A stretch of DNA of 64,000 nt, taken from contig NZ_JBCJKP010000001.1 of assembly GCF_039503195.1 (NCBI RefSeq), positions 9,362,001 to 9,426,000 of the forward strand. The letters run 5' to 3'. Position 1 is the first letter of the stretch. Each line of letters opens with the position of its first letter. This stretch comes from Streptomyces mirabilis (lineage in GTDB: Bacteria; Actinomycetota; Actinomycetes; Streptomycetales; Streptomycetaceae). The notes beneath the pieces are model-generated. The model was given only the letters and a program-made list of their open reading frames with translations, was not told the DNA's origin and did no database searches. A program made the translations under genes and the position numbers. Below are positions 21 to 35,498 of this stretch, piece after piece.

Positions 21-47
21 GACCGGACAGCAGATCCATTTGTGACA
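21..47 (-). promoter_or_regulatory. ECF41-type promoter pointing out of the window
   Basis: Read on the minus strand, TGTCACA (41-47) is followed by exactly 16 nt and GGTC (21-24). This matches the other twelve sites in the window. It would drive a gene that lies left of the window edge. Confidence 0.6.
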
Positions 48-120
48 GGGATTCGTAAGAATCGGGAAAATCCCTGGAACGGACCCTCAATGAGACTGTT
101 CAGCCAGTCGTGGAGGGGCG

Positions 121-1851
121 TTATTCGGCGAGCTTTCCGTCGGTCGAGACCTCTGTCATCAGCGCGGAAATCTCGTCGGGAATGGCAGGAATGCTCTCGC
201 GGGTGATACCGGTCGTGGGTGACCACACGAGGTTGACCTGCTGGGCGGGGTCCTGGTGGGGGTGGTCGCTGCGGTTGTGGCAGCCACGGGTCTCGCGTCG
301 CTCAAGTGCTGCTTCGAGGGTCGCCCGGGCCGACAGTGCCGCGGACTTGAGATCAAAGGCGTGGGCGAGATCCTGGAAGCCGGCGATGTCCGGGTGGACG
401 CCGATGTCCGCCATCCTCTTCTCGATCGCCGCGAGTTCCGCGAGCCCGGTGCGCAGGCCTTGTTCGTCGCGTACGACTCCGGCGTGCTCGGTCATGGTGT
501 TGCGGATGGCGCGCTGCAGGGCGCGGACGTTCTCCGGCCCGTCGGCGACGAGAAGGTCGTCGATCTCCGCGCGGGCCTCTGCGATGGCCGACGCCGACCG
601 GGGCTGGGCGGTCAGGGACTGCGAGTAGGCGGCGGCCGCCCGGCCCGTGATGCGGCCGAAGACCAGCAGTTCGATGAGACTGTTCCCGCCGAGGCGATTG
701 GCACCGTGCAGGCCGCTCGACGCCTCACCGATGGCGTACAGACCGCGCACGTCGGTGCGGTGGTCCTCGGGACGTACCCACACCCCACCCATCGAATAGT
801 GCGCGGTGGGCGCGATCTCGATCGGATCGCGGGTGATGTCCAGCATCTGCAGATCGAGCAGGGTCTGGTAGACCCGGGGGAGACGCGTCATGATCGTCTG
901 CCGTGGCAGATGGGAGACGTCGAGCCATACTCCGCCCTTGGGCGTCCCCCGCCCTTCCTTGATCTCCGTGTAGGACGCCAAGGCCACGCGGTCGCGGGTC
1001 GACAACTCCATGCGTGCAGGGTCGTAGCGGTTCATGAACCGCTCGCCGAGCGCGTTGCGCAGGATGCCGCCCTCACCTCGGGCGGCCTCGCTGACCAGGG
1101 TTCCGGCCGCGTTCTCCGGCTCGATGATCCCGGAAGGATGGAACTGCACCAGCTCGGCGTCGCGCAGACGGGCTCCGGCCTCCACCGCCAGGCGGAAGGA
1201 ATCGCCTGTGTTCTCGTCGCGCCGGGAGGACGTTCGCCGCCAGATGCGGGTGTGACCACCAGCGGCAAGGATGACGGCGTCGGCGTGGATCAGGTACCGC
1301 GTTCCATGGGTGAGATCGAAGCCGTAGGCACCGAAGACGGCGCCGTCGTGGACCAGAAGCCGGGTGATGTAGACACCGTCGAGCACCGGAACGTTCAGCT
1401 GCTCCGCGCGCCGGATAAGCGTGCGCTGGATCTCCAGACCGGTGTAGTCGCCGGCAAACGCGGTCCGCCGATACTTGTGCGCGCCGAAGAAGCGCTGGGA
1501 GATCCGGCCGTCCTCCTCCCGGGCGAAGGCCATGCCATAGCGTTCCAGGTCGCCGATGCCCTGAGCGGCGCCCTGGGTGACGATCTCCACGGTGCGGGGA
1601 TCGGCCAGCAGATAACTCTCCTTGAGAGTGTCGGCGGCGTGCTGCTGCCAGCTGTCCTCGGGATCCATGGTGGCCAGGGCCGCATTGATTCCTCCAGCAG
1701 CAAGCGCCGTATGCGCGTCCTCCTTGGGACGCTTGCCGACCGCGAGGACGTCGACACCGGCCTCGGCCAGCTCGATCGCCGCTCGCAGCCCAGCACCTCC
1801 GGTTCCGATCACCAGCACCATGGTGGAAATACGTTGTTCGGTGATAGCCAC
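121..1851 (-). CDS. FAD-dependent fumarate reductase/succinate dehydrogenase flavoprotein-like oxidoreductase
   Basis: A 576-aa protein of the SdhA/FrdA family, which moves electrons between FAD and a dicarboxylate or related substrate. Seen: an N-terminal dinucleotide-binding motif (VIGTGGAGLRAA), the AHTALAAGG segment whose His sits where family members bind FAD covalently, the substrate/active-site stretches ARGEGGIL and HYSMGGV, and GANRLGGNSLIELLVFGR near the C-terminus. L-aspartate oxidases lack the covalent-FAD His, so the SdhA/FrdA assignment is preferred. No iron-sulfur (SdhB) or membrane subunit gene lies next to it, so it is either soluble or has distant partners. An ECF41-type promoter (1889-1915) ends 37 nt before the start codon. 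The physiological substrate is not known. Confidence 0.88.
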   Translation of the reverse strand: MAITEQRISTMVLVIGTGGAGLRAAIELAEAGVDVLAVGKRPKEDAHTALAAGGINAALATMDPEDSWQQHAADTLKESYLLADPRTVEIVTQGAAQGIGDLERYGMAFAREEDGRISQRFFGAHKYRRTAFAGDYTGLEIQRTLIRRAEQLNVPVLDGVYITRLLVHDGAVFGAYGFDLTHGTRYLIHADAVILAAGGHTRIWRRTSSRRDENTGDSFRLAVEAGARLRDAELVQFHPSGIIEPENAAGTLVSEAARGEGGILRNALGERFMNRYDPARMELSTRDRVALASYTEIKEGRGTPKGGVWLDVSHLPRQTIMTRLPRVYQTLLDLQMLDITRDPIEIAPTAHYSMGGVWVRPEDHRTDVRGLYAIGEASSGLHGANRLGGNSLIELLVFGRITGRAAAAYSQSLTAQPRSASAIAEARAEIDDLLVADGPENVRALQRAIRNTMTEHAGVVRDEQGLRTGLAELAAIEKRMADIGVHPDIAGFQDLAHAFDLKSAALSARATLEAALERRETRGCHNRSDHPHQDPAQQVNLVWSPTTGITRESIPAIPDEISALMTEVSTDGKLAE

Positions 1852-1888
1852 GATCTACTCCGATCGCCGAGGGATTGTCACTCAGTAG

Positions 1889-1915
1889 GACCAGGACGTC
1901 CTGGAATGTGTGACA
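1889..1915 (-). promoter_or_regulatory. ECF41-type promoter of the flavoprotein gene
   Basis: Minus strand TGTCACA (1909-1915), a 16-nt spacer, GGTC (1889-1892). The flavoprotein start at 1851 lies 37 nt downstream of the -10, a normal short leader. Confidence 0.7.
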
Positions 1916-1993
1916 CCGTTCGTGGACGCTCTCGTGGCAGGTGACGTCCACTGACATCGATCCCATCGACGACCTCGGCGGGCGGGCGTCGGC

Positions 1994-2020
1994 TGTCACA
2001 ACCTCGTGGGCTTCATGGTC
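1994..2020 (+). promoter_or_regulatory. ECF41-type promoter before the ferredoxin remnant
   Basis: TGTCACA (1994-2000), 16 nt, GGTC (2017-2020). It is divergent from the flavoprotein promoter 79 nt away and lies 73 nt upstream of the ferredoxin-like start codon at 2094. Confidence 0.65.
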
Positions 2021-2093
2021 ATACCTTCAGTCGAACATTGCCTCGGCGAGCTGACTGACCATTGATCATGTCCGTCGGGCAAAGGAGCGGAAG

Positions 2094-2185
2094 ATGCCGT
2101 ACGTCATTGCACAGCCTTGCGCCGACGTCGATCGATGACGGAGCTTGCCTCATCGAGCGCCCAGCTGGGCGCAGTAGACGACCAA
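2094..2185 (+). pseudogene. N-terminal remnant of a 7Fe-type ferredoxin
   Basis: The ATG at 2094 is preceded by AAAGGAG and opens with MPYVIAQPCADVDR, then a stop. Streptomyces FdxA-type ferredoxins begin in this way (M-YVIAQPC-DV). In the next frame the text continues GACLIERPAG, resembling the family's KACIEECPVDC cluster segment, so one frameshift plus loss of the rest explains it. No further cluster cysteines are recognisable. The gene is dead but keeps its promoter and ribosome-binding site. Confidence 0.6.
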
Positions 2186-2914: not shown

Positions 2915-2925
2915 ACGTGCGGTGG

Positions 2926-3180: not shown

Positions 3181-3182
3181 GT

Positions 3183-3263: not shown

Positions 3264-3761
3264 CTATGAGACCAGCCTGATACTTGAAGGTGTTCCCCGC
3301 AGGGCCATCTTCGTGTAAGGGCACAGCGAATCGGCCTTCTCCACGAGTGGGGCGGCGACGGCGAGGTCGATGTCCGGCCACTTGACCTCAAGGTCGACGT
3401 GCAACAAGTAGCCGCCGTCTTCCGGGTCCCGTCCAAAAGCCACGCTCGCCTCCACGGAGATCGCTGCGGGGTCGAGCGCGGCCTGCCGTGTGACCAGACT
3501 CAGCGCCCCGTGGAAACAGGCTGCAATTCCGGCGGCGAACAACTGCTCGGGATTCGTCCCCTGGCCGTCTCCTCCCAGTTCTGCGGGCATGCGCAGGTTG
3601 AGATCCAGGACTCCGTCGCCCGAGCGTGCCCTTCCCGAGGCCCGCCCGTGACTCGCCATCCCCCCGCTCACCGTCACGGTCGTGGTGTAGATCGGGGCGA
3701 AGGTCTCTCCTTCGAAGTCTTTGTCGGTGGACAGATTGGGCGACTGGGGCCACTCGGTCAT
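3264..3761 (-). CDS. ohr: Organic hydroperoxide resistance protein (Ohr/OsmC family)
   Basis: A 165-aa cytoplasmic thiol peroxidase that reduces organic and fatty-acid hydroperoxides. Seen: IYTTTVTVSGG at the N-terminus, then DGVLDLNLRMPAELGG and TNPEQLFAAGIAACF with the peroxidatic Cys, and a second Cys in CPYTKMALRGT near the C-terminus, the Ohr two-cysteine arrangement. Full length is slightly longer than the usual 140 aa because of about 20 extra N-terminal residues. Its ATG overlaps the stop of a 59-codon ORF upstream (ATGA), so translation may be coupled. Instead of the usual adjacent MarR-type OhrR there is an ECF41-type promoter at 3988-4014. Confidence 0.92.
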   Translation of the reverse strand: MTEWPQSPNLSTDKDFEGETFAPIYTTTVTVSGGMASHGRASGRARSGDGVLDLNLRMPAELGGDGQGTNPEQLFAAGIAACFHGALSLVTRQAALDPAAISVEASVAFGRDPEDGGYLLHVDLEVKWPDIDLAVAAPLVEKADSLCPYTKMALRGTPSSIRLVS

Positions 3762-3987: not shown

Positions 3988-4014
3988 GACCGACACGTCC
4001 GCGCTGTTGTGACA
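3988..4014 (-). promoter_or_regulatory. ECF41-type promoter of the small ORF/ohr unit
   Basis: Minus strand TGTCACA (4008-4014), 16 nt, GGTC (3988-3991). The transcript would run through the 59-codon ORF into ohr and stop at the hairpin at 3183-3225. Confidence 0.68.
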
Positions 4015-5209: not shown

Positions 5210-5620
5210 TCAGCCGGTGGGCCGCGGGGCGCGCAGGTGGGCCCGCTTCTCCAGCTCCTCGTCGTCGACCAGCGTGAGCATCGGCTGGTCCGGCGCACAC
5301 ATCATGAACACGATGTATTTGGCTGGCACGTCCGACGAGGCGTTGCCGTTCTGGTAGTGGATCACCTCACCGCCCGGCTCCCAGAACGTCTCACCGGCCT
5401 TGATCACGTGCTCCGGCTCGCCCTCAAGCTCCCAGCGGACCGCTCCTTCGAGGACGTAGCCGAAACACGGCCCCGAGTGGCGGTGCGGAGGAGTCCCGGG
5501 GTCACCGGGAGCCCACTCGACGAGGACAGTCATCCCCGAAGCACCCTCGGGAATGAAAGGCGGTTTGATGTCCGCCAACATCTTGGGTCCGAAGCCGTCC
5601 TCTGAGTGCATTTCGTGCAT
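5210..5620 (-). CDS. Small cupin-domain protein (paralogue of 34894-35328)
   Basis: 136 aa, a single beta-barrel cupin. Motif 1 (PPHRHSGPCFGYVLEGAVRWELEGE) supplies two His, and motif 2 (GETFWEPGGEVIHYQNG) the third, enough for one metal ion. The start at 5620 is fixed by GGAGGTG 7 nt upstream; the longer frame is not used. The second cupin in the window shares the WEPGG-VIHYQ, CAP-QPML and RAPRP segments, and both genes have an ECF41-type promoter. Small cupins of this kind are often oxygenases, isomerases or small-molecule sensors; the substrate cannot be read from sequence. Confidence 0.85.
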   Translation of the reverse strand: MHEMHSEDGFGPKMLADIKPPFIPEGASGMTVLVEWAPGDPGTPPHRHSGPCFGYVLEGAVRWELEGEPEHVIKAGETFWEPGGEVIHYQNGNASSDVPAKYIVFMMCAPDQPMLTLVDDEELEKRAHLRAPRPTG

Positions 5621-5704: not shown

Positions 5705-5731
5705 GACAGGGCGTGGCCCGCATCTGTGACA
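5705..5731 (-). promoter_or_regulatory. ECF41-type promoter of the cupin gene
   Basis: Minus strand TGTCACA (5725-5731), 16 nt, TGTC (5705-5708). The cupin start is 84 nt downstream. Confidence 0.68.
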
Positions 5732-5862: not shown

Positions 5863-6336
5863 TCAGCCGAACATGCCGACCTTGTAGCTGCCGGCTGGCT
5901 GCTGGGTGATGATGTTGATGCGGTTGTAGGCGTTGATGATGGCGATGAGGGTCGTCAGCGCGGCGAGTTGGTCCTCATCGAAGTGCTTGGCGGCGTCCGC
6001 CCAAGCCTCGTCGGTGACACCACCGGCCGCGTCCGCGACGCGGGTGCCCTGCTCGGCCAGCTCCAGCGCGGCGCGCTCGGCCTCGGTGAAGACCGTCGCC
6101 TCCCGCCAAGCGGCGATCAGGTTGAGCCGCACCGAGGTTTCCCCGGCGTGGGTGGCCTCCTTGGTGTGCATGTCGGTACAGAAACCGCAGCCGTTGATCT
6201 GGCTGGCGCGGACCTCCACCAGATGCTGAATGGTGGCCGGCAGCGTCGAGTCCGACAGCGCCTTGCTGGCCGAGAAGAAATGCTTAAGCGCCTTGCCCGC
6301 GAGGGGATTGCCGTAGTAGTTAAGGCGTGCGTCCAT
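5863..6336 (-). CDS. Carboxymuconolactone decarboxylase (AhpD-like) family protein
   Basis: 157 aa. The motif GCGFCTDMHTKEA holds the CxxC and downstream His of AhpD-like peroxidase/disulfide reductase members, so a thiol-based antioxidant role is more likely than true decarboxylation. The helical CMD repeat follows (ALTTLIAIINAYNRINI). The start is fixed by GGAGGG just upstream. CMD-family genes are the best-known targets of ECF41 sigma factors, and this one has such a promoter 35 nt before its start, while the sigma gene lies 11 kb away. Confidence 0.9.
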   Translation of the reverse strand: MDARLNYYGNPLAGKALKHFFSASKALSDSTLPATIQHLVEVRASQINGCGFCTDMHTKEATHAGETSVRLNLIAAWREATVFTEAERAALELAEQGTRVADAAGGVTDEAWADAAKHFDEDQLAALTTLIAIINAYNRINIITQQPAGSYKVGMFG

Positions 6337-6371: not shown

Positions 6372-6398
6372 GACCGGACAGCCCGGCAAGGTGTGACA
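6372..6398 (-). promoter_or_regulatory. ECF41-type promoter of the CMD-family gene
   Basis: Minus strand TGTCACA (6392-6398), 16 nt, GGTC (6372-6375). Confidence 0.72.
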
Positions 6399-6652
6399 CC
6401 AGAGCGCAGCGTGATGCATGTCTCAGCGGCCATGTCGTCGCCGTACAGCTGCCAGTTCGAGGGCTTCTGCGTGCTGTGCGCCCACCTCTGGATCCCATCC
6501 GGTGTCGAGGGGTTCGGGCGGTCAGAGCCCGATGCAGGTCATTCGGTGCACAGCGCTGATTTCGTGACGTTGAGCGCCAACCGGGTCGTGCCATGTCTTT
6601 CCTGCCTGCGGGACGCGCAGGAGTGGGCGGAGAGGGCCACACGGTGCCCGGC

Positions 6653-6711: not shown

Positions 6712-6738
6712 CGTCACAAAAGTGGCACGAGTGCGGTC
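6712..6738 (+). promoter_or_regulatory. ECF41-type promoter of aceE
   Basis: CGTCACA (6712-6718, one mismatch to TGTCACA), 16 nt, GGTC (6735-6738). The aceE start is 121 nt downstream. Confidence 0.55.
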
Positions 6739-6859: not shown

Positions 6860-9562
6860 ATGAGTGATCCGTCCCGGCCCACTGAGTTCTCTGCGACGAG
6901 CGAGCTCGACCAGCTACCCGACTGGGACACCGAGGAGACCGCCGAATGGCAGGCATCACTCGACGCTGTCGTGCGGAACGCAGGGCCGGATCGGGCGGTC
7001 TACCTGCTGCGACGCGTGCACGAGTACGCGGCCAGGTCCGGACTCGCTCTGCCAAGGCTCTTGTCCTCGGACTACATCAACACGATCCCGGCGTCCGCGC
7101 AGCCCGTCTTTCCCGGTGACGTCGCCATGGAGTCCAGGATCACCGCCGTGAACCGCTGGAATGCGGCAGCGATGGTGACACGCGGCTCCCGCCTGGGGCT
7201 CGGCGGCCACATAGCCACCTACGCTTCGGCGGCATGGCTGTACGAGGTCGGGTTCAATCACTTCTTCCAGGGCAAGGACGGGGAGGGCTCGGGCGATCAG
7301 CTGTACGTGCAGGGGCATGCCTCGCCCGGCATCTACGCCCGCGTGTTCCTGGAAGGGCGCCTCGACGAGAGGCAGTTGGACAACTTCCGGCGCGAGGCCG
7401 GCGGCCACGGACTGCCGTCCTACCCCCACCCCCGCCGCCTGCCGTGGCTGTGGGAGTTTCCGACCGTCTCCATGGGACTTGGTCCGCTCGCCGCCATCTA
7501 CCAGGCTCGGTTCAACCGCTACCTGCACGCGCGCGGCATCAAGGACACATCCGGGTCCCGCGTATGGGCATTCCTTGGGGACGGGGAAATGGACGAGCCC
7601 GAAGCGATGGCCGCACTGGCGCTCGCCGCCCGCGAGCGGCTCGACAACCTCACCTTCGTCATCAACTGCAACCTCCAGCGCCTGGACGGCCCAGTGCGGT
7701 CGAATTCCAAGATCGTTCAGGAACTTGAGGGCCGGTTCCGCGGAGCGGGCTGGAACGTCGTGAAGTCCCTCTGGGGCGAGGCTTGGGACCACGTACTGCG
7801 ACAGGACACCACAGGGGCCCTCGTTCACCGCCTCGGCGAGGCCCCCGACGCCCAGATGCAGACGTACGCCGCGCGGGACGCCGCCTACATACGCACGCAT
7901 TTCTTCACCGGCGACGCGCTCTCCGGCATCGCCGCCCGGCTCAGCGATGCCCAGCTCACCGATCTGTTCGAGAACTCGCGCGGCGGGCACGAACCGCTCA
8001 AGGTCCATGCCGCCTATCGCGCCGCAGTCGAGCACCACGGAGCACCGACCGTCATCCTCGCCCAGACGGTGAAGGGGCACACGCTGGGCGCGGGCTTCGA
8101 GTCCCGCAACGCCAATCATCAGATGAAGAAGCTGACCATGGCGCAGTTCCGTGACATGCGGGACGTGCTTGAGCTTCCCATTCCCGACAGCGCGCTGAGC
8201 GGCGACCTGGTGCCGTACTGGCACCCCGGTGAGAATTCGGAAGAGGTGCAGTACCTGCGCGATCGGCGTACGGCTCTGGGAGGTCCCGCCCCGGTACGCA
8301 AGGTGGTCGTCAAGCCGATGCAGCTGTCCCCGGCCGCGCCTTTCGAGACCCTGACGAAGGGCTTCGGCAAACAGGAGGTGGCCACCACCATGGCTCTTGT
8401 CCGGCTGGTCAAGGACCTGATGCGCGTTGAGGAGACGGGGCGGCGCTGGGTGCCGATCATCCCCGACGAGGCCCGCACGTTCGGCATGGAATCCATGTTC
8501 CCGACAGCCGGCATCTACTCACCGCACGGCCAGACCTACGAACCGGTCGACGCGGATCAGCTGCTCTACTACCGCGAAGCCAAGAACGGCCAGCTCATCG
8601 ACGAGGGCATCACCGAGGCTGGTTCCATGGCCGAGTTCACCGCTGCGGCGACCTCGTACGCCACGCACGGCGAGCCCATGATCCCCTTCTACATGTTCTA
8701 CGCCATGTTCGGTTTCCAGCGAACCGGTGACCAGTTCTGGGCCCTGGCAGACCAGATGGGGCGCGGGTTCGTCATCGGGGCGACGGCCGGTCGTACGACC
8801 ATGACCGGCGAGGGACTACAGCACGCCGACGGACACTCCCACCTGCTGGCATCCGCGAATCCGGCCACTGTGAGCTACGACCCTGCCTTCGCGTACGAGA
8901 TCGCGGTGGTCGTCAGGGAAGGGCTGCGACGGATGTACGGCGACCAGCCCGAAGACGTCTTCTACTACCTGACGGTCTACAACGAGCCCAAGCAGCAGCC
9001 GGCCATGCCAACCGGGCCGGAGGTCGAGGAGGGGATCCTACGGGGCATATACCGGTTCCGGCAGGCGGAGCCACTTGGCGCGGGACCACGGATCCAGTTG
9101 CTGGCTTCCGGCACGGCCATCCACTGGGTGCTCGAGGCCCAGGAACTGCTCGCGTCCCAGTGGGGCGTCCAGGCTGACGTGTGGTCGGTGACCTCCTGGA
9201 CGGAGCTGCGCCGCGATGCCTTGGGTGCTGACAGGGCCCGGCTTCGGGGTGAGGAGCGCGTTCCGTACGTGACGGCTGCGCTGTCGGGCACTCCAGGGCC
9301 CGTTCTGGCGGTCAGTGACTGGATGCGGCAGGTGCCCGACCAGATCAGCCAGTGGGTAGAGCAGGACTACACGTCGCTGGGAACGGACGGCTTCGGGCTG
9401 TCGGACACCCGTGATGCCGTACGCCGCTATTTTCACGTCGACGCCGAGTCGATCGTCGTTGCCGCCCTGGACCAGTTGGCGCGGGCGGACGCTATCGCCC
9501 CGGAGACGCTTGTCCAGGCTCGCGATCGCTACGGCCGCCCGGGACGCCCTGCGATTGCATGA
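6860..9562 (+). CDS. aceE: Pyruvate dehydrogenase E1 component, homodimeric type
   Basis: A 900-aa thiamine-diphosphate enzyme that decarboxylates pyruvate and passes the acetyl group to lipoyl-E2. The length equals that of other homodimeric E1 proteins. Seen: the ThDP motif GDGEMDEPE...NLTFVINCN from about residue 240, the conserved IIPDEARTFGMES and IYSPHGQTY region in the middle, GRTTMTGEGLQHADGHSH, and the C-terminal SVTSWTELRRD and YTSLGTDGFGLSDTRDAVRRYF. No E2 or E3 gene is nearby, so it must use partners made elsewhere; it is probably a second E1. It has its own ECF41-type promoter. Its last 525 bp are overlapped by an antisense extension of the TetR frame. Confidence 0.95.
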   Translation: MSDPSRPTEFSATSELDQLPDWDTEETAEWQASLDAVVRNAGPDRAVYLLRRVHEYAARSGLALPRLLSSDYINTIPASAQPVFPGDVAMESRITAVNRWNAAAMVTRGSRLGLGGHIATYASAAWLYEVGFNHFFQGKDGEGSGDQLYVQGHASPGIYARVFLEGRLDERQLDNFRREAGGHGLPSYPHPRRLPWLWEFPTVSMGLGPLAAIYQARFNRYLHARGIKDTSGSRVWAFLGDGEMDEPEAMAALALAARERLDNLTFVINCNLQRLDGPVRSNSKIVQELEGRFRGAGWNVVKSLWGEAWDHVLRQDTTGALVHRLGEAPDAQMQTYAARDAAYIRTHFFTGDALSGIAARLSDAQLTDLFENSRGGHEPLKVHAAYRAAVEHHGAPTVILAQTVKGHTLGAGFESRNANHQMKKLTMAQFRDMRDVLELPIPDSALSGDLVPYWHPGENSEEVQYLRDRRTALGGPAPVRKVVVKPMQLSPAAPFETLTKGFGKQEVATTMALVRLVKDLMRVEETGRRWVPIIPDEARTFGMESMFPTAGIYSPHGQTYEPVDADQLLYYREAKNGQLIDEGITEAGSMAEFTAAATSYATHGEPMIPFYMFYAMFGFQRTGDQFWALADQMGRGFVIGATAGRTTMTGEGLQHADGHSHLLASANPATVSYDPAFAYEIAVVVREGLRRMYGDQPEDVFYYLTVYNEPKQQPAMPTGPEVEEGILRGIYRFRQAEPLGAGPRIQLLASGTAIHWVLEAQELLASQWGVQADVWSVTSWTELRRDALGADRARLRGEERVPYVTAALSGTPGPVLAVSDWMRQVPDQISQWVEQDYTSLGTDGFGLSDTRDAVRRYFHVDAESIVVAALDQLARADAIAPETLVQARDRYGRPGRPAIA

Positions 9563-10312: not shown

Positions 10313-11020
10313 GGCGACCAGCCATCGACATCTGTCGCTGCGGTCGCACCGTAGCGGTCACCGATGAGGGCGCCGGTGTTGGGGCTGCGGTCCAGGTAGC
10401 TGCGCTCATGGGACAGATGCGCCGTCGGGCTGATGCAGTTGCGCGGCCCGACGTGGGTGGCCGGGTCGAGCCGATGTACGGGGGATCTTCCCGGCGCGAA
10501 GGCCCCGAGTCCATTGGCTACGGCGGAACAACCGTCGGCGCTGAGGGAATGTCCAGGTGCCGACCCACTCGATCCGACCGTTCGCGCTGGTGAGCTGATG
10601 CACGTGCTCGGCGTGGGGAGAGCGATGGCACCGTTGCGGAATCCGCCGAGCACGATCAGCAGGAGCAGAGAGCGCAGCCGGGCGTGCAATGCGCCCATCC
10701 CGCTGGCGACGATCTGGGGGCACACGTGGTGCGGCCGCGGCGCGGCCCTGCCTGGGTGGGCGGCCGTGATGGCTTCGTCGAGAGCACTCACCGCGCTTCC
10801 GATGATCACGTCCGGGGCCAATCTGCGCTGGTCCAGTGCGTACCGGACACCGACATACGCCGCTGCGAGTACGCCACCGGCGCCCACCACCACGGCCACC
10901 GGACGCGGACGGGAGCGCAAGCCCGTCGACGGCGGATCCCCGGGCGGGCGGCTCGACGAGGTTGGTCTTTGCGACAAGTAAACCCTCCGCCTTTCGGACC
11001 ATGGCGTCGGATCGGAACGG
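10309..11020 (-). pseudogene. Decayed twin of the patatin operon: patatin front fused to hydrolase tail
   Basis: The first part reads RPVAVVVGAGGVLAAAYVGV..YALDQRR, matching the patatin at 32245-33213, but its nucleophile motif GTSVG has become GSAVS. From about 10720 it switches to the C-terminal third of the hydrolase at 29595-30533 (SLLLLIVLGGFRNG, VHRLDPATHVGPRNCISPT, RSYLDRSPNT). Everything between, including the glycosyltransferase and membrane genes, is missing, and further frameshifts follow. Compared with the intact copy, the six bases covering ATCATG after AAAGG-GG in the leader are also gone. Confidence 0.85.
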
Positions 11021-11032: not shown

Positions 11033-11059
11033 GACCGGGCGACCCTCAGGTCTGTGACA
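11033..11059 (-). promoter_or_regulatory. ECF41-type promoter kept before the decayed operon copy
   Basis: Minus strand TGTCACA (11053-11059), 16 nt, GGTC (11033-11036). The flanking bases resemble those of the intact copy at 33363-33389, so the promoter was duplicated with the operon. Confidence 0.65.
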
Positions 11060-13576: not shown

Positions 13577-13757
13577 GGTGCCTACCTGGTGTGCTGTGCC
13601 AGATGACCGCCGGATTGCCCTCGCCATCGGCTCTCTTCACGATCGTTCCGCAACCGCCCGCCGTCAACACGAGGGTCCAGCACCCTGGTGTGATCCCGCA
13701 CAGGTGTTGGGGGCGCAGCGGAGGCAGGCATAGCCGCATTTCGTTTCAAACGATACC

Positions 13758-14582: not shown

Positions 14583-15233
14583 CTACGCGGCGAGGAGTTC
14601 CGCGAGTTCCTCGGCCCTGGCGGCTGCGTCCTCCAAGGCACGCTTGCGGGAGGCCTCGTAGAGGGGGACCAGTTCGGACATGGCCGGATTGCGGGGGGCC
14701 ATGGTGAGTTCGGGGACGATGAAGTCGAGGTCCAGGCCGAGGGTGTTCTTGAGGACGGCCTCCAGGTAGTTCTGTACGAACTCGTAGTCCTCGCGCGGGG
14801 TGCCCGGTGCGTAGGAGCCGCCGCGGCTGGCGACGACGATGGCCGGGGTGCCCTGGGCGGAGGGGGTCTCGCCCGCGGTGCGGCCGAGCAGGAGCACGTT
14901 GTCCAGCCACGCCTTGAGGGTCGACGGGATCGAGTAGTTGTACATGGGGGCGCCGATCAGGACGGCGTCCGCCTGCTCCAGCTCCTCGATGAGCTTCACG
15001 CGCGCGGCGAACGCGGCGGACTGCTCCGGGCTGCGCTCGGCGGGGGCGGTGTAACCAGCGGACCAGGCGTCGGCGGTGATGTGCGGGACAGGGGCGGCGG
15101 CGAGGTCGCGGTAGATGACGGTGCCCTCCGGGTGCTGCTCCTCCCAGACCTTGCGGAAAGTAGCAGTGACAGAACGGGACGAGGACGCCTCGCCGGGGAA
15201 CACGGACGAGTCGATGTGCAGCAACGTGGCCAT
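14583..15233 (-). CDS. azoR: FMN-dependent NADH-azoreductase / quinone reductase
   Basis: 216 aa from 15233, with GGGAG 7 nt upstream. Flavodoxin-like fold: LLHIDSSVFPGEASSSRSVT at the N-terminus, the FMN-binding loop PMYNYSIPSTLKAWLDN and the second loop VASRGGSY. The family reduces azo dyes and quinones by two-electron transfer from NADH, protecting against quinone stress. A GTATTG-ATGA dyad lies 48 nt upstream, and the same motif precedes the two marR genes and the nitroreductase, so MarR repression is likely. Confidence 0.9.
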   Translation of the reverse strand: MATLLHIDSSVFPGEASSSRSVTATFRKVWEEQHPEGTVIYRDLAAAPVPHITADAWSAGYTAPAERSPEQSAAFAARVKLIEELEQADAVLIGAPMYNYSIPSTLKAWLDNVLLLGRTAGETPSAQGTPAIVVASRGGSYAPGTPREDYEFVQNYLEAVLKNTLGLDLDFIVPELTMAPRNPAMSELVPLYEASRKRALEDAAARAEELAELLAA

Positions 15234-15281
15234 GGACATTCTCCCAAGAGAGGATTGGCGCTCAGCGATAGTCAAACACGA

Positions 15282-15303
15282 GATGGTATTGAATGAGACT
15301 ATC
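15282..15303 (-). promoter_or_regulatory. Putative MarR operator of azoR
   Basis: A 22-bp imperfect dyad with half-sites GATGGT and ACTATC around a GTATTGAATGA core. Confidence 0.55.
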
Positions 15304-15355
15304 ACGGGTGAGATGGACGCCTGGATCTGGCGAGGAGACGGGCGAGCGCGGACCT

Positions 15356-15655
15356 CTATGGAGTGATGCAGGATCCGTCAACGGGCACGGAGCAGCCACA
15401 TGGGACCGTCGGCAAACCGTCCTCGCTGTCCGACTCCTGGACACTGCTTCGCCTGACCCGGGCCACGAGCAGCGAGTCCGCGGCGGCTATGGCCTCGTGC
15501 ACGTTTTGGGTTCCCATCGTGATGCACAGCGTGTAACTCACGTCCTCAAGCTCACGCGCACTTTCCCGCCCCTCGCCCTCGGCGGGCGCGATCTGCAGGG
15601 ACGCGTAGCGGGTCAGCAGCCTTCTGACGACCTTCGGATCCGGAACAATGAGCAC
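15356..15655 (-). CDS. DUF5133 domain protein
   Basis: 99 aa. The start is the GTG at 15655, preceded by GAGGA at 8 nt. The product would begin MLIVPDPKVVRRLLTRYASLQ. The body ARELEDVSYTLCITMGTQNVHEAIAAADSLL fits the Streptomyces DUF5133 family, whose function is unknown. These small proteins are often found near ECF-type or stress regulators. An ECF41-type promoter lies 106 nt upstream. Confidence 0.78.
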   Translation of the reverse strand: MLIVPDPKVVRRLLTRYASLQIAPAEGEGRESARELEDVSYTLCITMGTQNVHEAIAAADSLLVARVRRSSVQESDSEDGLPTVPCGCSVPVDGSCITP

Positions 15656-15761
15656 AGTCAGGGTCCTCTCTCTCAACGTTCGAGTCACCTCATGCCAACA
15701 TCACGCTTGGCGACAACAGCGTTCGGTTGCTGTCGTGGGCCACACCGCTGCCCTGAGTGAA

Positions 15762-15788
15762 GACCGGATGCCCCCGACTTCTGTGACG
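15762..15788 (-). promoter_or_regulatory. ECF41-type promoter of the DUF5133 gene
   Basis: Minus strand CGTCACA (15782-15788), 16 nt, GGTC (15762-15765). Confidence 0.58.
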
Positions 15789-17362: not shown

Positions 17363-17389
17363 TGTCACACGACACGTGCACGCCCGGTC
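17363..17389 (+). promoter_or_regulatory. ECF41-type promoter of the sigma factor gene itself
   Basis: TGTCACA (17363-17369), 16 nt, GGTC (17386-17389). The sigma gene starts 196 nt downstream. Indicates positive autoregulation. Confidence 0.7.
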
Positions 17390-20736: not shown

Positions 20737-20764
20737 TGGCTCTGTGAGGGATGTCGATGGTCAC
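20270..20764 (-). CDS. MarR-family regulator, right copy
   Basis: 164 aa, GTG start at 20764. Same winged-helix protein as 13793-14278; the N-terminus (MTIDIPHRATPSAG) is unrelated to the left copy up to PSAGSRATD. Upstream of the nitroreductase gene on the same strand, 570 nt apart and separated by a hairpin, so they are separate units. Two near-identical regulators with different promoters would respond to the same ligand but be made under different conditions. Confidence 0.88.
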   Translation of the reverse strand: MTIDIPHRATPSAGSRATDHPGDTSPFALALLLRRAHWRVAGVMTEALRPLGIELRHFAVLLVLVDRGPTVQRDLGPATGSDKAGIMRVVDDLERMGLAVRKAVPGDRRVRAVEITPRGVELFDAAHVAAEPLAERLVADLGPGEREQLTGLLTRFAHPVEGQA

Positions 20765-29594: not shown

Positions 29595-30533
29595 TCATGG
29601 CGACGGATCGTCTGTCGCCGCGGTCGCGCTGTGGCGGGCGCGGATGAGCGCGATCACGGTGTCGGTGGTGCGGTCGAGGTAGCTACGGCCGTCGGGCGGC
29701 TGAGGCGTCGGGCTGATGTAGCTGCGCGGCCCGAGGTGGGTGGCCGGGTCGAGCCGATGCACGGTGATCTTCCCGGCGTGGCGGGCCCGGTTCCATCCGC
29801 TACCACGGCACAGCCGCCAGCGCTGAGGGAAGATCCAGGTCCCGAACCGCTCAATTCCGTCGCTCGCGCTGGTGAGCCGATGCACGTGCTCGGCATGGGT
29901 GAGGTCGTTGGCGCCGTTGTGGAACCCACCGAGCGTGATCAGCAGGAGCGGGGAACGTAGCTGGGTGTGCAGTTCGTCAACCGCGCCGGTGGCGACCTGG
30001 GCGCCGCCGCTGTAGCTGAGCAGCACCACGGGGATACCGCTGTCGGCCTGATAGCCGGCGAGCCGGAGCTGAGTGGCGATCTGGGAGCCGACAGCCCGGT
30101 TGTACAAGGGGCGGTACCGGTGGTCGGCGGCTACGAAGATCTGCATGACATTGTGCAGGAACAACAGCAGCCCGATGCGGCGACGCAGCCACGCCCACAC
30201 CGGCCGATCAGCAAGCGGGTCGGCCAGCGGCGAGTAGGGCTGCACCTGACCCAGTACCCGCAACTCCGGAGCCCCGGCGATCACGGCCTTGACCAGCTGG
30301 CCGCCGTCCCGGGTGTCGCGGACGCGGCGTTTACCGATGCCGTCCAGGTAGACCACATAGGCATCCGGGGGACCGTCAGCGTCCGCACCTCGGGCGTAGG
30401 GCACGCCCTCTGGGAGCTCGGTGGTAGGGGCCCGCCAGCCGGCGCTGTAGGCCAGCACCTCATAGCGGGCCAGCAGAGCTTCGACGAGGAGGAGCGGACC
30501 AAGGACCAGGACAATGAGCGGGAACCAGGTCAC
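29595..30533 (-). CDS. Membrane-anchored alpha/beta-hydrolase-like protein
   Basis: 312 aa. One N-terminal membrane segment (residues 3-22), then DAYVVYLDGIGKRR, a second hydrophobic stretch (about 118-135) and a nucleophile-elbow-like LLSYSGGAQVATG centred on Ser175. I do not recognise a named family; a lipase/thioesterase-like role fits the patatin gene in the same operon. Its ATG overlaps the membrane gene's stop by 4 nt. The last third reappears in the decayed copy at 10309-11020. Its own stop overlaps another ATG (ATGA), where the twin copy has the TetR gene, so a fifth gene may have been lost here. Confidence 0.75.
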   Translation of the reverse strand: MTWFPLIVLVLGPLLLVEALLARYEVLAYSAGWRAPTTELPEGVPYARGADADGPPDAYVVYLDGIGKRRVRDTRDGGQLVKAVIAGAPELRVLGQVQPYSPLADPLADRPVWAWLRRRIGLLLFLHNVMQIFVAADHRYRPLYNRAVGSQIATQLRLAGYQADSGIPVVLLSYSGGAQVATGAVDELHTQLRSPLLLITLGGFHNGANDLTHAEHVHRLTSASDGIERFGTWIFPQRWRLCRGSGWNRARHAGKITVHRLDPATHLGPRSYISPTPQPPDGRSYLDRTTDTVIALIRARHSATAATDDPSP

Positions 30534-31021
30534 GTCAGCAACTCCTGCGCCCCGCTGGCACTAATCTTCACGAGCAGGTTCCGAACAACTTCGACGGCGG
30601 CGGCCAGCCCGACTCCTGCTACGGCCACGCAGCCCGCCGCAGCCCACCAGCCCAGATCCGTCATCTCGGACAGCGGGGCGACGAGGCCGACTCCGACCCC
30701 CACGATGAGCAGCAGGTGCAACAGGGGCCCGAGCAGCGGGAATGCGAGGACAGCGGCGAGAACCAGGGGGGCAACGAGGCCAGGTGTCCAGGTCAGCGCG
30801 GCGTGTGATGATGGAGCGGACACCACCAGCTCGGCAAGGGCCGATGTGGTCCGTGGCCACAGTGCGATCACAGCGGACTCGACCATGGCACCGGTCAGCA
30901 GTAGCCCGATGGCCACAATGGGCCGGGACGCGCTGTACCGGGTGGCTACCAGGGGCAGGATCCGCCCGGCGGATTCGGACAGCCCGGCGAGCAGCAGCAG
31001 GACGACAACAACGGACGACAT
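30530..31021 (-). CDS. Small integral membrane protein of the patatin operon
   Basis: 163 aa with four predicted membrane helices (about residues 3-20, 35-55, 82-115, 122-145) and no known motif. It starts 3 nt after the glycosyltransferase stop and overlaps the hydrolase start by 4 nt, so the three are translated together. It could be a carrier or anchor for the lipid substrate or product; this is inferred only from position. Confidence 0.75.
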   Translation of the reverse strand: MSSVVVVLLLLAGLSESAGRILPLVATRYSASRPIVAIGLLLTGAMVESAVIALWPRTTSALAELVVSAPSSHAALTWTPGLVAPLVLAAVLAFPLLGPLLHLLLIVGVGVGLVAPLSEMTDLGWWAAAGCVAVAGVGLAAAVEVVRNLLVKISASGAQELLT

Positions 31022-31024
31022 CGG

Positions 31025-32248
31025 TCAGCGCTCCTGTGGGGAATCCGGCGGTGTCGGTCGGCCGACCCGGCCGACCCGGTGCAGGTAGCGCTCGAGTTCG
31101 TCGGCGGCGCGCACATAGCCGCCGGCCTCGCGCTGGGCGAGCTGCATGGTGGCGGCCGCGTCCCGAAAGCCTGGTTCGTCGAGCAGGCGTCGGGCCAGGA
31201 CGTTCACGGGTCCCGGGGCGGCGTCCTGGGTACGGATCGACAGGCCTGCGCCGAGCTCGACAACCCGCCGGGCCACCAGCGGTTGATCTGCGCCCTGTGG
31301 GACCACCAGCATCGGCACCCCGGCGTGCATGGCCTCGTTGACGCTGTTCATCCCGCCATGAGTGACGAACAGCGCGGCGCGGGCCAGCACCTCCGGTTGC
31401 GGCACGAAGCGGCGGGCGAGCACGTTGGCCGGCAACGGACCCAGGGCGGCGGGATCGGTCTGCCCGGTGGCGACGACCACGGTACCGCCCAGCGGGGCGA
31501 GCGCGGTGGCGAAGCTGCGCAGTAGCTTTGGGTGAGCGTTGAACACCGTGCCCAACGAGGCGTACAGCACCGGGGCTTGCAGGCGATCGATCGGGAACGA
31601 CGGGTCGAGTGGACGGGCGCCAAGGCTTGGGCCTACGAACTGGTATGACTGGTCGAAGGCGTCGACGCCGAGTTGGAACGCGCGCGAGGTGAAGACCAGG
31701 TTGAGGGGCTGGCGTACGTTGGCCAAGTCGAGCAGTGGCAACCCACGGGTGTTGTAGCGGCGGTACAACCCCCACCGCGACCGCACGTAGCTCTGGACAT
31801 TGCGGGGCCGGGTCGCCGCCGCGGCCAGCAGTTCCCACGAGACGCGGCTGGGGCTGGGCACCTGCCGGTTGAACGCAAAGGTGGTGAACGCCGCTGCCGT
31901 CGGCACCTCGAGCTCGCGGGCGGCGACTGCGCCCCAGGGGCAGGCGGCGCCATGGACGATCAGGTCGGGCCGGACGCGACGCAGATCGGAAAGCACAGCG
32001 GGCAGCAGACCCACGGCGGTGCGCGCAAGCCCGTCCAGCATCGTGAGTGGCATCGGCGGATCGGGGAGCGGTCGGTCGCCCCCGGGGTAGAGGCACACCG
32101 TCGCGCCGGTGGCCTCGATCTCCTGCGAGAACGCGGGCGAGGTGTGATACGTGACGGAGTGGCCACGACGAACAAGCTCGGCTATGACCGGCAGCGTCGG
32201 ATTGATGTGCCCGTGCATGGCGATATTGAGGAACGCGATGGTACTCAC
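31025..32248 (-). CDS. Glycosyltransferase, GT1/MGT type
   Basis: 407 aa from the GTG at 32248, whose GTGA overlaps the patatin stop. Two-domain GT-B fold: N-terminal acceptor half (STIAFLNIAMHGHINPTLPVIAELVRRGH), C-terminal donor half with VLYASLGTVF and the nucleotide-sugar motif FVTHGGMNSVNEAMHAGVPMLVVPQGADQP. Enzymes of this kind glycosylate small lipophilic acceptors, including macrolides, sterols and carotenoids. Coupling to a patatin lipase suggests a lipid acceptor. Cytosolic or peripheral at the membrane; no signal peptide. Confidence 0.9.
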   Translation of the reverse strand: MSTIAFLNIAMHGHINPTLPVIAELVRRGHSVTYHTSPAFSQEIEATGATVCLYPGGDRPLPDPPMPLTMLDGLARTAVGLLPAVLSDLRRVRPDLIVHGAACPWGAVAARELEVPTAAAFTTFAFNRQVPSPSRVSWELLAAAATRPRNVQSYVRSRWGLYRRYNTRGLPLLDLANVRQPLNLVFTSRAFQLGVDAFDQSYQFVGPSLGARPLDPSFPIDRLQAPVLYASLGTVFNAHPKLLRSFATALAPLGGTVVVATGQTDPAALGPLPANVLARRFVPQPEVLARAALFVTHGGMNSVNEAMHAGVPMLVVPQGADQPLVARRVVELGAGLSIRTQDAAPGPVNVLARRLLDEPGFRDAAATMQLAQREAGGYVRAADELERYLHRVGRVGRPTPPDSPQER

Positions 32249-33213
32249 CGGCCGACCTCCGATACGGAGGTGTTCCGCGCCTTGTGCAAGACGGCCGGTG
32301 TCGCCGGAGGATCGTCGCCCCGATACAGGCCCGGCCCACTGATGCGCAGCCCGTCGAGAAAGCGCCCCGCCGTGCGGGACGCGGTGCTGATCAGCCGCTG
32401 GGAATGTCCGAAGTCCCACGGGGCGGGCCAGGCCTCGATGCCGGTCGGCAGCACGACGGTCGGGATGTGCTGGGACACCTCGTGCAGGTCACGCTCGATC
32501 TGATGGCGCATCAGCAGCAGTCCGGCCCTGGCGGCGATTGCGCTGGCGCGTCGGCGCGGGATAGTTGGGCTCAACGGCGAGCTCTCCGGCCCGGTCGACA
32601 GCACCACCATGCTGGCCGCCCCGGCCTGGAGGGCCGCCAGTACCGGGACATAGGCGATCACCCCGCCGTCGACGAGCGTCCGACCCTCACGATCCACCGG
32701 GGGCAGGATCCCGGGAATGGCTGCGCTGGCCAGCAGCGCGGACTCGAGGTCTCCGTGGTTGAGCAGCGCCGGAGCGCCGGAGCCCAGGTCCATGGCCACC
32801 GCGGTGAACGGGACCGCCAACTGCTCGATCCGCGACGGCAGTCCAGCCCGGGCGATCAGCCGACGCAGGCCGCGATCGGTGAAGAGGCTGGCCCGTGAGG
32901 ACAGGTAGCCGAGCGGATACACCTCACGGCGACGCAACTGGGTCCAGACGTGGTCCAGCCATGGTGCGGCCCCGTCGGGGTGGGCGGCTCCGATTGCCCC
33001 GATGAGGGCGCCCACCGACGTTCCGATGATCATGTCCGGGACGAATCCGCGCTGCTCCAGCGCGTACCCGACACCAACATGCGCCGCTCCGAGCACGCCA
33101 CCGGCGCCCACCACCACGGCGACGGGACGGGGCAGGGTGCGCAAGGCCGCCGGCGCCGGGCCCCCGGGTGGCTCGCTCGATGACAGCGGACGCGGTCCCT
33201 TGCCGCCCGTCAT
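32245..33213 (-). CDS. Patatin-like phospholipase
   Basis: 322 aa from 33213. Oxyanion-hole loop GAGGVLGAAHVG at about residues 36-47, nucleophile elbow GTSVG (Ser66) and catalytic DGG (182-184) form the Ser-Asp dyad of patatin-like lipid acyl hydrolases. An in-frame ATG at 33312 is a rival start, having AAAGGTGG just upstream, and would add 33 residues; in the decayed twin exactly this ATG is deleted. First gene of a four-gene operon with 4-nt overlaps, driven by an ECF41-type promoter at 33363-33389. Likely hydrolyses membrane phospholipid under stress (inference). Confidence 0.9.
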   Translation of the reverse strand: MTGGKGPRPLSSSEPPGGPAPAALRTLPRPVAVVVGAGGVLGAAHVGVGYALEQRGFVPDMIIGTSVGALIGAIGAAHPDGAAPWLDHVWTQLRRREVYPLGYLSSRASLFTDRGLRRLIARAGLPSRIEQLAVPFTAVAMDLGSGAPALLNHGDLESALLASAAIPGILPPVDREGRTLVDGGVIAYVPVLAALQAGAASMVVLSTGPESSPLSPTIPRRRASAIAARAGLLLMRHQIERDLHEVSQHIPTVVLPTGIEAWPAPWDFGHSQRLISTASRTAGRFLDGLRISGPGLYRGDDPPATPAVLHKARNTSVSEVGR

Positions 33214-33362: not shown

Positions 33363-33389
33363 GACCGGGAGGCCACCACATCTGTGACA
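33363..33389 (-). promoter_or_regulatory. ECF41-type promoter of the patatin operon
   Basis: Minus strand TGTCACA (33383-33389), 16 nt, GGTC (33363-33366). Confidence 0.72.
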
Positions 33390-34480: not shown

Positions 34481-34808
34481 GTCTCCGCCGCAGAATACTT
34501 CGCGGCCCTCCGCAGGATCTCCCGCTCGAGCTCGAGTTCCTTCACTCGCGCCCGCAGCTGCCGGTTCTCCTTCTCCATCGCGGTGGCCTCCACCGCCCCG
34601 GGCCGGACGGCCTGCTCGGCATCCCGCACCCACGTGCGGAGCGTCTCGTGATTGACGCCCAGGTCCCTGGCCACTGGCGCGTACGTCCCACTCGGGCTCG
34701 AGTGGTACAGCGCGACGGCATCGGCCCGGAACTCAGGAGAGTACTTCGACGTCCCCAACGGGAACTCCCGTCCTATGGATCATCACGATCCAATGATCAG
34801 GGTGTCCA
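33677..34808 (-). mobile_element. IS3-family element, truncated at the orfB end
   Basis: The orfA-side end is probably GGTGTCCA at 34801-34808 (TGGACACC inwards), matching the end next to the orfB tail at 27480. The other end has been cut off at about 33677. It lies between the patatin promoter and the second cupin. Confidence 0.65.
34471..34758 (-). CDS. IS3-family transposase orfA
   Basis: 95 aa: MGTSKYSPEFRADAVALYHSS, a helix-turn-helix (YAPVARDLGVNHETLRTWVRD) and a coiled coil (MEKENRQLRARVKELELEREILRRAAKY). orfB overlaps its end in another frame, so a programmed shift would make the full transposase. Confidence 0.85.
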   Translation of the reverse strand: MGTSKYSPEFRADAVALYHSSPSGTYAPVARDLGVNHETLRTWVRDAEQAVRPGAVEATAMEKENRQLRARVKELELEREILRRAAKYSAAETSW

Positions 34809-34893
34809 CGCACAAGGGGAAATGCCCCACGGCTGTCCTCGGGTGCCGGAATGCCGGGGGAGGCGGGCACGGAGCCGACCTCCCCCCGTGCGG

Positions 34894-35328
34894 TCAGGGG
34901 CGAGGTGCGCGACGGTCCCGCCGCTGCTCGAGCTCCTCCGCGCTGACCGGGATGAGCATCGGCTGGCCGGGTGCGCAGAACATCGTCACGACGAATGCGG
35001 ATTCGGCGTCGGCGAGGTTGTTGCCGTCCTGGTAGTGGATGACGTCGCCGCCCGGCTCCCAGAAGGTCTCGCCGGCCTTGAGGACGCGCGCCGGCTCGCC
35101 CTCCAGCTCGAAGATCATCTCACCCTTGAGGACATAGCCGTAGGCAGGGCCGGAGTGGCGGTGTGGCGGGGCGCCCTCGCAGCCCGGCGGGAGGGTGACC
35201 AGGAGTGTCATCGCCTCGGCGCCCTCGGGTATCTGCCGTGCGCCGGGTACGGAGCCGATCACGTCGATCTTGGGCGGCGGTGTGGTCGCGTTGGGGTTCT
35301 CGATGTGGTGCGAATGTTCGGCGCTCAT
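34894..35328 (-). CDS. Small cupin-domain protein (paralogue of 5210-5620)
   Basis: 144 aa from 35328, with AGGAAA upstream. Cupin motif 1 PPHRHSGPAYGYVLKGEMIFELEGE and motif 2 GETFWEPGGDVIHYQDG keep all metal-binding His. It shares long identical segments with the first cupin, so the pair arose by duplication. It is divergent from the esterase gene at 35542; the 213-nt gap holds two ECF41-type promoters back to back. Confidence 0.86.
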   Translation of the reverse strand: MSAEHSHHIENPNATTPPPKIDVIGSVPGARQIPEGAEAMTLLVTLPPGCEGAPPHRHSGPAYGYVLKGEMIFELEGEPARVLKAGETFWEPGGDVIHYQDGNNLADAESAFVVTMFCAPGQPMLIPVSAEELEQRRDRRAPRP

Positions 35329-35376
35329 GGGTTTCCTCATCATTTGTGGTCGGTTGGATCTTCTTACGTCAGTTAA

Positions 35377-35403
35377 GACAGGGTGGAGTCGCGAAGTGTG
35401 ACA
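35377..35403 (-). promoter_or_regulatory. ECF41-type promoter of the second cupin
   Basis: Minus strand TGTCACA (35397-35403), 16 nt, TGTC (35377-35380). Confidence 0.7.
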
Positions 35404-35471
35404 GCCCTCGCCGCCGTCGGATGGCGACGACGATGGGGCGGCCAGAACGAGCCTGATCGGCCTGGGGCGTG

Positions 35472-35498
35472 TGTCACACCGGCAGCAGGTGCCCTGTC
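35472..35498 (+). promoter_or_regulatory. ECF41-type promoter of the esterase gene
   Basis: TGTCACA (35472-35478), 16 nt, TGTC (35495-35498), 43 nt before the start codon. Confidence 0.72.

Follow-up and report, generated by a model that had tools for sequence, protein, structure and literature searches.

Extracytoplasmic function (ECF) sigma factors of group ECF41 are widely distributed, with several copies per Streptomyces genome, and they generally control a single target gene or operon, according to the excerpted text of Wecke et al. (2012; PMC3426412); the other papers cited below are likewise represented by excerpts. The promoters mapped for this group combine a –35 element TGTCACA, a 16-nucleotide (nt) spacer and a –10 element CGTC or TGTT (PMC3426412), and the C-terminal domain of these sigmas contacts their WLPEP linker through the motif NPDKL (PMC7730460, PMC8999054). 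Here, a stretch of 64,000 nt from Streptomyces mirabilis (GCF_039503195.1, contig NZ_JBCJKP010000001.1, positions 9,362,001 to 9,426,000), hereafter the window, was analyzed, for which an earlier note made from the letters alone had proposed a clustered ECF41 regulon read by a sigma encoded at 17586. The many clustered promoters of ECF41 type and their named member genes were borne out, and the assignment of 17586 as their reader was not. The window is very probably one half of a sigma island, in which an ECF41 sigma encoded by the island itself would read about two dozen units provided with a shared promoter.

The scan of the window for YGTCACA-N16-KGTC revealed 13 sites, compared with a mean of 0.14 and a maximum of 2 in 100 dinucleotide shuffles, none of which reached 13. 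When the spacer of [CT]GTCACA-Nn-NGTC was varied from n=8 to 27, 13 occurrences were found at n=16 and 0–2 at all other lengths. All the sites previously read by eye, from left coordinate 21 to 35472, were recovered, and the scan agreed that no perfect match lies beyond 35.5 kb of the window. In the context of the 11.1-Mb genome, there were 46 such sites and 3 for the reversed control pattern, and 26 of the 46 were packed into two stretches totalling 78 kb, at 9,131,615-9,137,455 (5 sites) and 9,325,651-9,397,498 (21 sites, 8 left of the window and 13 inside), so that the density here relative to elsewhere came out as the earlier note had anticipated. The Poisson expectation for 78 kb was about 0.14 sites (P about 2e-49, with the limits of the stretches set post hoc). 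Similarly, 23 of the 31 genomic occurrences of TGTCACA-N17-GTC fell within the two stretches. Since 13 further clustered sites lie left of the window, half of the cluster is outside it, and the note, correct on clustering, understated its extent. Many gene families were doubled between the 9.13-Mb and the 9.33–9.40-Mb parts, with flavoprotein copies 95% identical, and the island as a whole contained numerous remnants and paralogues.

This arrangement recurs in other species. A survey of 295 Streptomyces genomes, the present one included, revealed mostly 0–8 TGTCACA-N16-KGTC sites per genome and at least 12 in 30 of them, the site-rich genomes carrying 12–42. In the five of these that were mapped, most sites were gathered in one stretch: G141 (28 of 42 sites in 72 kb), G172 (22 of 28 in 63 kb), G118 (22 of 26 in 74 kb), G246 (22 of 26 in 111 kb) and G262 (19 of 21 in 52 kb). 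The sites of these stretches precede conserved genes for redox, respiratory, peroxide and lipid functions, and canonical ECF41 sigmas are interspersed with them. The genomic neighborhood of sigA, a full-length ECF41 sigma gene found outside the window at 9,137,497-9,138,393 (minus strand), was then compared over 40 sigA loci plus the two stretches of the present genome (0.89 Mb), where TGTCACA-N16-NGTC occurred 240 times and the same elements at spacings of 10–15 and 17–23 occurred 0–36 times. Around sigA, 259 of 265 YGTCACA-N16-KGTC sites were placed outside called genes, though 74% of the sequence was coding. A second set of 80 named sigA loci, which partly overlaps the 40 and is not independent of them (S. 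olivochromogenes, S. canus, S. flaveolus, Actinacidiphila, Streptacidiphilus and Embleya among others), carried 372 sites at spacer 16 and 0–8 at spacers 12–15 and 17–20. Sigmas of the sigA type or of the type of its paralogue sigB (E ≤1e-95) were found in 22 of 121 genomes, belonging to 5 of the 17 genera of the family. A chance origin of the sites was ruled out by the shuffles, the spacer scans and the genome-wide and multi-locus counts.

The sites behave as directional elements. A gene start on the same strand was found within 250 nt of 181 of 210 sites, with 114 having a start in the forward direction only, 7 in the mirrored direction only and 67 in both, and a same-strand gene start lay within 450 nt of 129 of 147 sites across the present island and, from other genomes, four islands plus the greater part of a fifth. 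Moreover, orthologous genes often kept similar distances to their sites, the flavoprotein family being placed 66–69 nt away at 6 of 9 sites. The island form of the motif is TGTCACA-N16-[G/T]GTC, often ending in CCGGTC, and it preserves the ECF41 –35 element with the spacer of 16 ± 1; among the 240 sites, the base preceding GTC was G in 192, T in 40, A in 6 and C in 2. The earlier note had counted sites with GGTC or TGTC as ECF41 promoters; the published –10 consensus, CGTC, is carried by none of the 13 window sites. As a separate observation, TGTCACA-N11-TGTC was likewise over-represented around sigA (21 cases), because the stretch ahead of the –10 often reads TGTCCGGTC, possibly an extended –10 element.

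Two other origins of the motif were considered and set aside. The low information at the spacer positions of the 240-site alignment makes recent copying of a single sequence, as by a repeat element, less likely, no formal repeat search having been made. A plasmid-only system is at odds with the location of the present copy in a 10.97-Mb contig and with one named record being a complete chromosome; close sigA relatives do also occur on three plasmid records of 0.84–1.6 Mb. Outside the islands, a near-identical single site, TGTCACAAGGG-GGCGCACACGGTGTC, lies at 6,262,385-6,262,411 of this genome and recurs in many others whether or not they carry sigA; it may be a target conserved for some other ECF41 factor.

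The candidates for reading these promoters are two intact sigmas located outside the window, sigA and sigB (about 9,330,371-9,331,306, plus strand), which are 57–59% identical to each other. sigA matched PF04542 with 43.4 bits, PF08281 with 51.6 bits and TIGR02957 with 339.4 (cut-off 323.25), and presented WLPEP at residue 90, DGGG at 210 and NPAKL at 285. sigB matched PF04542 with 40.6 and PF08281 with 52.5 bits, contained WLPEP, DGNG and NPSKI, and reached 318.6 for TIGR02957, slightly below the cut-off with the short start used. By these sequence features, both belong to ECF41. For the survey, the sigA class was set by hand from the listed matches at ≥69% identity and the sigB class at 55–63% and >330 bits, the class counts resting on matches listed down to about 218 bits among the 8 candidates scored per genome. 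Among the matches listed, sigA was present in 49 of the 295 genomes, and site number followed the sigmas: the mean was 15.2 in the 49 genomes with sigA, 6.5 in the 14 with sigB only and 2.98 in the 232 with neither, the genomes not being phylogenetically independent. At least 12 sites were found in 27 of 49, 2 of 14 and 1 of 232 genomes of these groups, respectively. An enrichment due to base composition or to ECF41-like sites in general was rejected, as the control pattern ending in CGTC did not differ between the groups (means of 3.73, 3.79 and 3.27). Islands with sigB and the paralogue sigD and without sigA were observed in G079 and G212.

The position of the sites relative to the sigma genes themselves was also informative. 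In two overlapping locus sets, a site lay within 300 nt upstream of sigA in 1 of 40 and 3 of 81 cases, of sigB in 6 of 11 and 13 of 20, of sigD in 11 of 23 and 24 of 40, and of truncated sigmas in 1 of 7 and 2 of 6, indicating that the regulon mostly excludes sigA and often includes sigB and sigD. We infer from these data that RNA polymerase with sigA or sigB would read the island promoters. The SnoaL-like C-terminal domain of sigA would sense a signal, upon which sigA would switch on the island, including sigB, as an amplification, and sigD, as a feedback, and the units that share the ECF41-type promoter would form a programme against redox, respiratory and electrophile stress.

Several observations weigh against the reading of the sites by sigA or sigB. 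The ECF41 –10 CGTC was found in 2 of the 240 sites, and, with GGTC in 192, the sigma must tolerate or prefer a –10 element unlike that of the published ECF41 factors. Seven of the 49 sigA genomes had five sites or fewer, with none in G230, and 7 of the 80 named sigA loci had no site and 14 had one, some of these loci being short contigs. G105 carried an 8-site island in which the only sigma relative found was a truncated one. Moreover, neither the forward nor the mirrored direction offered a called start within 250 nt at 22 of the 210 sites, and 18 of the 147 island sites lacked a same-strand gene within 450 nt. The sigB gene of this genome is not directly downstream of a site, and the roles of sigA and sigB cannot be separated by sequence. 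It was also observed that L118 (G101), L097 (G230) and L137 (Actinacidiphila acididurans) carry a well conserved sigA with none or one site nearby, which would fit either lost islands or a different target set.

The islands of relatives also carry truncated sigmas (sigC). In the five that were aligned, the last residue corresponds to sigA residue 203–212. This is close to the positions at which laboratory truncation of ECF41 proteins increased activity, by about 20-fold at 204 and about 120-fold at 206, while removal of the whole extension abolished it (PMC3426412), the match of sigA numbering to Ecf41Bli and Ecf41Rsp being estimated from the end of region 4, with no alignment to those proteins made. 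Other truncated forms end near region 4, run into unrelated residues or are fragments, so that the 203–212 end is not shared by all 19. A frameshift artefact was rejected, since 17 of the 19 distinct truncated proteins had no match to the C-terminus of sigA, sigB or sigD in the following 900 bp, or as far as the locus extended; the truncated sigmas of L096 and L212 had such matches on the opposite strand, which in L096 is the adjacent sigD. In a tree of the sigma core (FastTree, arbitrary root), some truncated forms sat on long branches, separate from sigA and sigB, and others were placed inside the sigB clade with weak support, while one sequence classed as other fell within sigA and some of that class grouped with truncated ones. 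This mixed placement supports only that the truncated forms are not one lineage.

The window itself encodes sigD (17586..18470, plus strand), a degenerate ECF41 paralogue placed 197 nt downstream of the site at 17363..17389 (plus strand). It had been described in the earlier note as an ECF41 sigma with both signature motifs, but WLPEP is missing, as it is from all 24 members of the sigD family, and neither PF04542 (Sigma70_r2) nor the Pfam SnoaL models were matched at 1e-3, with region 4 below the cut-off. The window protein carries DGGGK and NPDKL; among 24 relatives, 19 have DGGGK, 23 have NPDKL and one has NPEKL. The best conserved part of sigD is the C-terminal regulatory domain, with a mean identity among nine sequences of 0.67, compared with 0.59 in region 2, 0.17 in the linker and 0.42 in region 4, the corresponding values for six sigA being 0.72, 0.75, 0.81 and 0.81. 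In the relatives, the recognition-helix stretch is eroded or deleted, and the AED-VQ stretch, which we take to be core-binding, reads AES-V[GD] or similar. The AlphaFold model (predicted local distance difference test, pLDDT, 75.6; predicted template modelling score, pTM, 0.49; linker residues 78–110 below 50) presented helices in the parts of regions 2 and 4 and an NTF2-like part, with Foldseek hits to NTF2-like folds and matches to SigJ and SigG1.

With sigD matches counted down to 233 bits and 8 candidates scored per genome, 33 of the 34 genomes with a listed sigD match had sigA or sigB, the remaining one, G165, having the C-terminal part of sigD only and neither of the two. Seven C-terminal-only matches (163–205 bits, 60–71% identity; G128, G207, G068, G220, G045, G067 and G061), all in sigA or sigB genomes, were left out of this count.

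These findings suggest, as our own reading of the sequences, a multi-promoter ECF41 regulon in which the regulatory domain has become partly uncoupled from the sigma. The linker motif that is normally clamped in cis is missing from sigD, which keeps a C-terminal domain with NPDKL, so that sigD would be free to act in trans on sigA and sigB or on the truncated sigmas. In its full form, this proposal is a split ECF41 switch in which the one-piece sigma with its built-in SnoaL inhibitor was repeatedly divided, with truncated sigmas on one side and, on the other, sigD, which retains the inhibitor domain and would act in trans on the WLPEP linker of its neighbors, all for a regulon of many promoters whose –10 specificity has changed; it is offered tentatively, as something less than an even prospect. 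A competing explanation, which is possible and should likewise be held as falling short of even chances, is that the promoters are used as proposed and that sigC and sigD are functionless decaying copies, the multiplicity having arisen by duplication of promoter-gene modules. The abundance of remnants and paralogues in the island would fit such decay, as would the truncated sigmas nested with weak support in the sigB clade and the erosion within the sigD family, where DGGG is missing in 5 of 24 relatives and region 4 is largely gone in some. On the other hand, the C-terminal domain of the nine sigD retained 67% mean identity despite the drifted linker, NPDKL or NPEKL was kept throughout the family, and no internal stop was found in the matches of at least 233 bits. 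Moreover, the remaining truncated sigmas stood apart in the core tree, and 23 of 46 sigD genes had sigB or a truncated sigma no more than 500 bp away, sigD and sigB in this genome being 48 kb apart.

That sigD itself is the sigma reading the promoters is improbable, and its assignment as such in the earlier note was probably wrong. In favor of it are the location of sigD inside the cluster, often behind a promoter, its relatedness to SigJ over nearly full length, its co-occurrence with sigA or sigB and the helices retained by its model in regions 2 and 4. Against it stand the absence of a region 2 match, the sub-threshold region 4, the lost WLPEP, the altered AED-VQ stretch, the eroded recognition helix and the much lower identity of linker and region 4 than in sigA; in addition, no sigD match was found among the 8 candidates scored per genome in the site-rich G153 (27 sites) and G149 (12 sites) or in G105 with its 8-site island. 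It is more improbable still that the motif is no promoter and is bound instead by an ordinary transcription factor. The islands do encode MarR, WhiB and LuxR-type regulators, but the motif is non-palindromic, with dissimilar half-elements separated by a constant 16 nt, is strongly directional, has a –35 identical to that of mapped ECF41 promoters and follows the presence of sigA in its number.

The targets of the sites were traced by gene calling with a simple codon-usage finder, whose starts are approximate, and by translated comparison with the genes around sigA in other genomes, Pfam identities being taken from the proteins themselves, from paralogue copies or from family representatives. 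In this way, 22 of the 26 clustered sites were found to precede a member, intact or as a clear remnant, of a gene family seen repeatedly near sigA in other genomes. In the window, the site at 21..47 (minus strand), which the earlier note had left pointing outward, points at an NmrA-like SDR gene 93 nt away and just outside, at -818..-72. The site at 1889..1915 (minus) lies 68 nt from a fumarate-reductase-like flavoprotein of 566 residues (121..1821, minus; FAD_binding_2 and Succ_DH_flav_C, by Pfam scan of the 95% identical copy at 9.135 Mb). Behind the site at 1994..2020 (plus), only a 12-residue ferredoxin start was recognized, in a probable ferredoxin remnant at 2094..2138 (plus; match at 2094-2129, 83%, E 0.003, followed by a stop). 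An OsmC-like protein of 165 residues (3264..3761, minus; Pfam on a representative), whose family was present in 17 of 42 stretches (the 40 sigA loci and the two of this genome), follows the site at 3988..4014 (minus) at 227 nt, a cupin (5210..5620, minus; Pfam on a representative) follows that at 5705..5731 (minus) at 85 nt, and a carboxymuconolactone decarboxylase (CMD) or AhpD-like protein of 157 residues (5863..6336, minus; Pfam scan of a paralogue) follows that at 6372..6398 (minus) at 36 nt. Next to it, the site at 6712..6738 (plus) lies 122 nt from a pyruvate dehydrogenase E1 of 900 residues (6860..9562, plus). Between these two genes, at 6450..6589 (minus), fragments of the sigA/B family in two frames form an ECF41 sigma gene remnant, by its sequence a sigma copy lost inside the island.

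Further along the window, the site at 11033..11059 (minus) precedes a decayed copy of a lipid operon, with remnants of its patatin and 312-residue protein at 10330..10926 (minus), and that at 15762..15788 (minus) precedes a DUF5133 protein (15356..15688, minus) and a Flavodoxin_2 family protein resembling NAD(P)H quinone reductases (14583..15305, minus). The intact lipid operon (29595..33117, minus), encoding a patatin, a UDPGT-type glycosyltransferase and proteins of 163 and 312 residues without a Pfam family, lies 150 or 246 nt from the site at 33363..33389 (minus), depending on the start call. Finally, a second cupin (34894..35328, minus) follows the site at 35377..35403 (minus) at 49 nt, and an Abhydrolase_3 esterase-like protein of 316 residues (35545..36495, plus; Pfam on a representative) is the hydrolase 47 nt from the site at 35472..35498 (plus). 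The identities given by the earlier note to its member genes were upheld by Pfam for cupin, CMD, OsmC, pyruvate dehydrogenase E1, DUF5133, Abhydrolase_3 and the patatin/glycosyltransferase operon.

Beyond the window, clustered sites of this genome also precede genes for an NDH-like FAD enzyme, a cytochrome b of QcrB type and, judging by a match, a WhiB-like protein. Remnants were also found behind sites of their own: pieces of OsmC at 9.1372 Mb and again at 9.3398 Mb, where an acyl-CoA dehydrogenase comes next, a disrupted nitroreductase at 9.3295 Mb and an SDR piece at 9.3274 Mb. The site at 9,348,702 precedes, at 400 nt, an SDR that is 36% identical to a recurring SDR family; the 275-residue protein behind 9,348,876 had no counterpart in the other mapped islands, and behind the plus-strand site at 9,137,058 antisense remnants were found and no sense-strand target was left. 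ECF41 genes are typically accompanied by CMD, oxidoreductase or epimerase genes, and such neighbors were frequent, with CMD in 18 and an NmrA-type SDR in 36 of the 42 stretches. Judged from its families, the gene set may represent a reserve of redox, electron-transport and peroxide or electrophile functions.

Other elements of the neighborhood were also observed. An IS481-type transposase (15957-16916, minus) lies directly upstream of the site at 15762, and the transposase at 9,358,840-9,360,141 is presumably IS256-like. The open reading frames at 13913-14278 (plus) and 20270-20764 (minus) face opposite ways, and their products match at 100% identity across 121 residues, which by sequence marks them as a recent duplication or a mobile-element piece. 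The window also encodes a PAS-GAF-SpoIIE-HATPase phosphatase (11150-13627, minus) and a large AAA-LuxR regulator (24103-26835, plus). Proteins akin to both occur in the islands of other genomes, and a site lies upstream of a SpoIIE-domain protein in G141 and of an AAA-LuxR protein in G118.

The many-promoter island contrasts with the published view of ECF41 as one sigma for one target, and it represents a stress regulon physically held together, as in a biosynthetic cluster. Its defined gene set, together with natural full-length, truncated and regulator-only variants, offers a handle on sensing and inhibition by the SnoaL-like domain. The best solved relative of sigA (E 3e-43) and sigD (E 2e-22) is SigJ of M. 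tuberculosis (PDB 5xe7), also the top Foldseek hit of the sigD model (TM-score about 0.4 overall, with domain placement uncertain at the given pTM); unlike SigJ, sigD has neither the linker motif nor a normal recognition helix. Another wider ECF41 regulon may exist in Azospirillum, where Dubey et al. in 2020 reportedly connected an ECF41 factor with lateral flagella. The SigR regulon of S. coelicolor is not known to be physically clustered, and its promoter and anti-sigma type differ from those of the island. SigR resembles the island in being an ECF factor with a many-gene redox-stress regulon, of 134 targets (Table 1, PMC9205884).

Closer in architecture is the SigG1-RsfG pair (ECF56; PMC7730460; PDB 7qh5), in which a Streptomyces sigma with a SnoaL_2 extension is controlled by an adjacent protein; RsfG is a separate anti-sigma, whereas sigD is a degenerate sigma paralogue. 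RpoE9 of S. meliloti (PMC6180224) is an ECF41 sigma with a CMD target, as here, but only one target was found for it. No prior description of a clustered many-promoter ECF41 regulon was found in the open-licence literature searched, as far as its excerpts extend. The closest described systems are Ecf41Bli and Ecf41Rsp, with which sigA and sigB share region 2, the WLPEP linker, region 4 and an extension with DGGG or DGNG and NPxKL/I, and the promoters share the –35 TGTCACA with the 16-nt spacer. Unlike these systems as excerpted, the islands have 12–42 promoters in the site-rich genomes, a –10 of GGTC or TGTC and several sigma paralogues per island, and the single target next to its sigma is not what is found here, as judged by promoter count only. 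The island departs from the described kind of ECF41 system in the number and clustering of its promoters, in their –10 element and in its truncated and degenerate paralogues.

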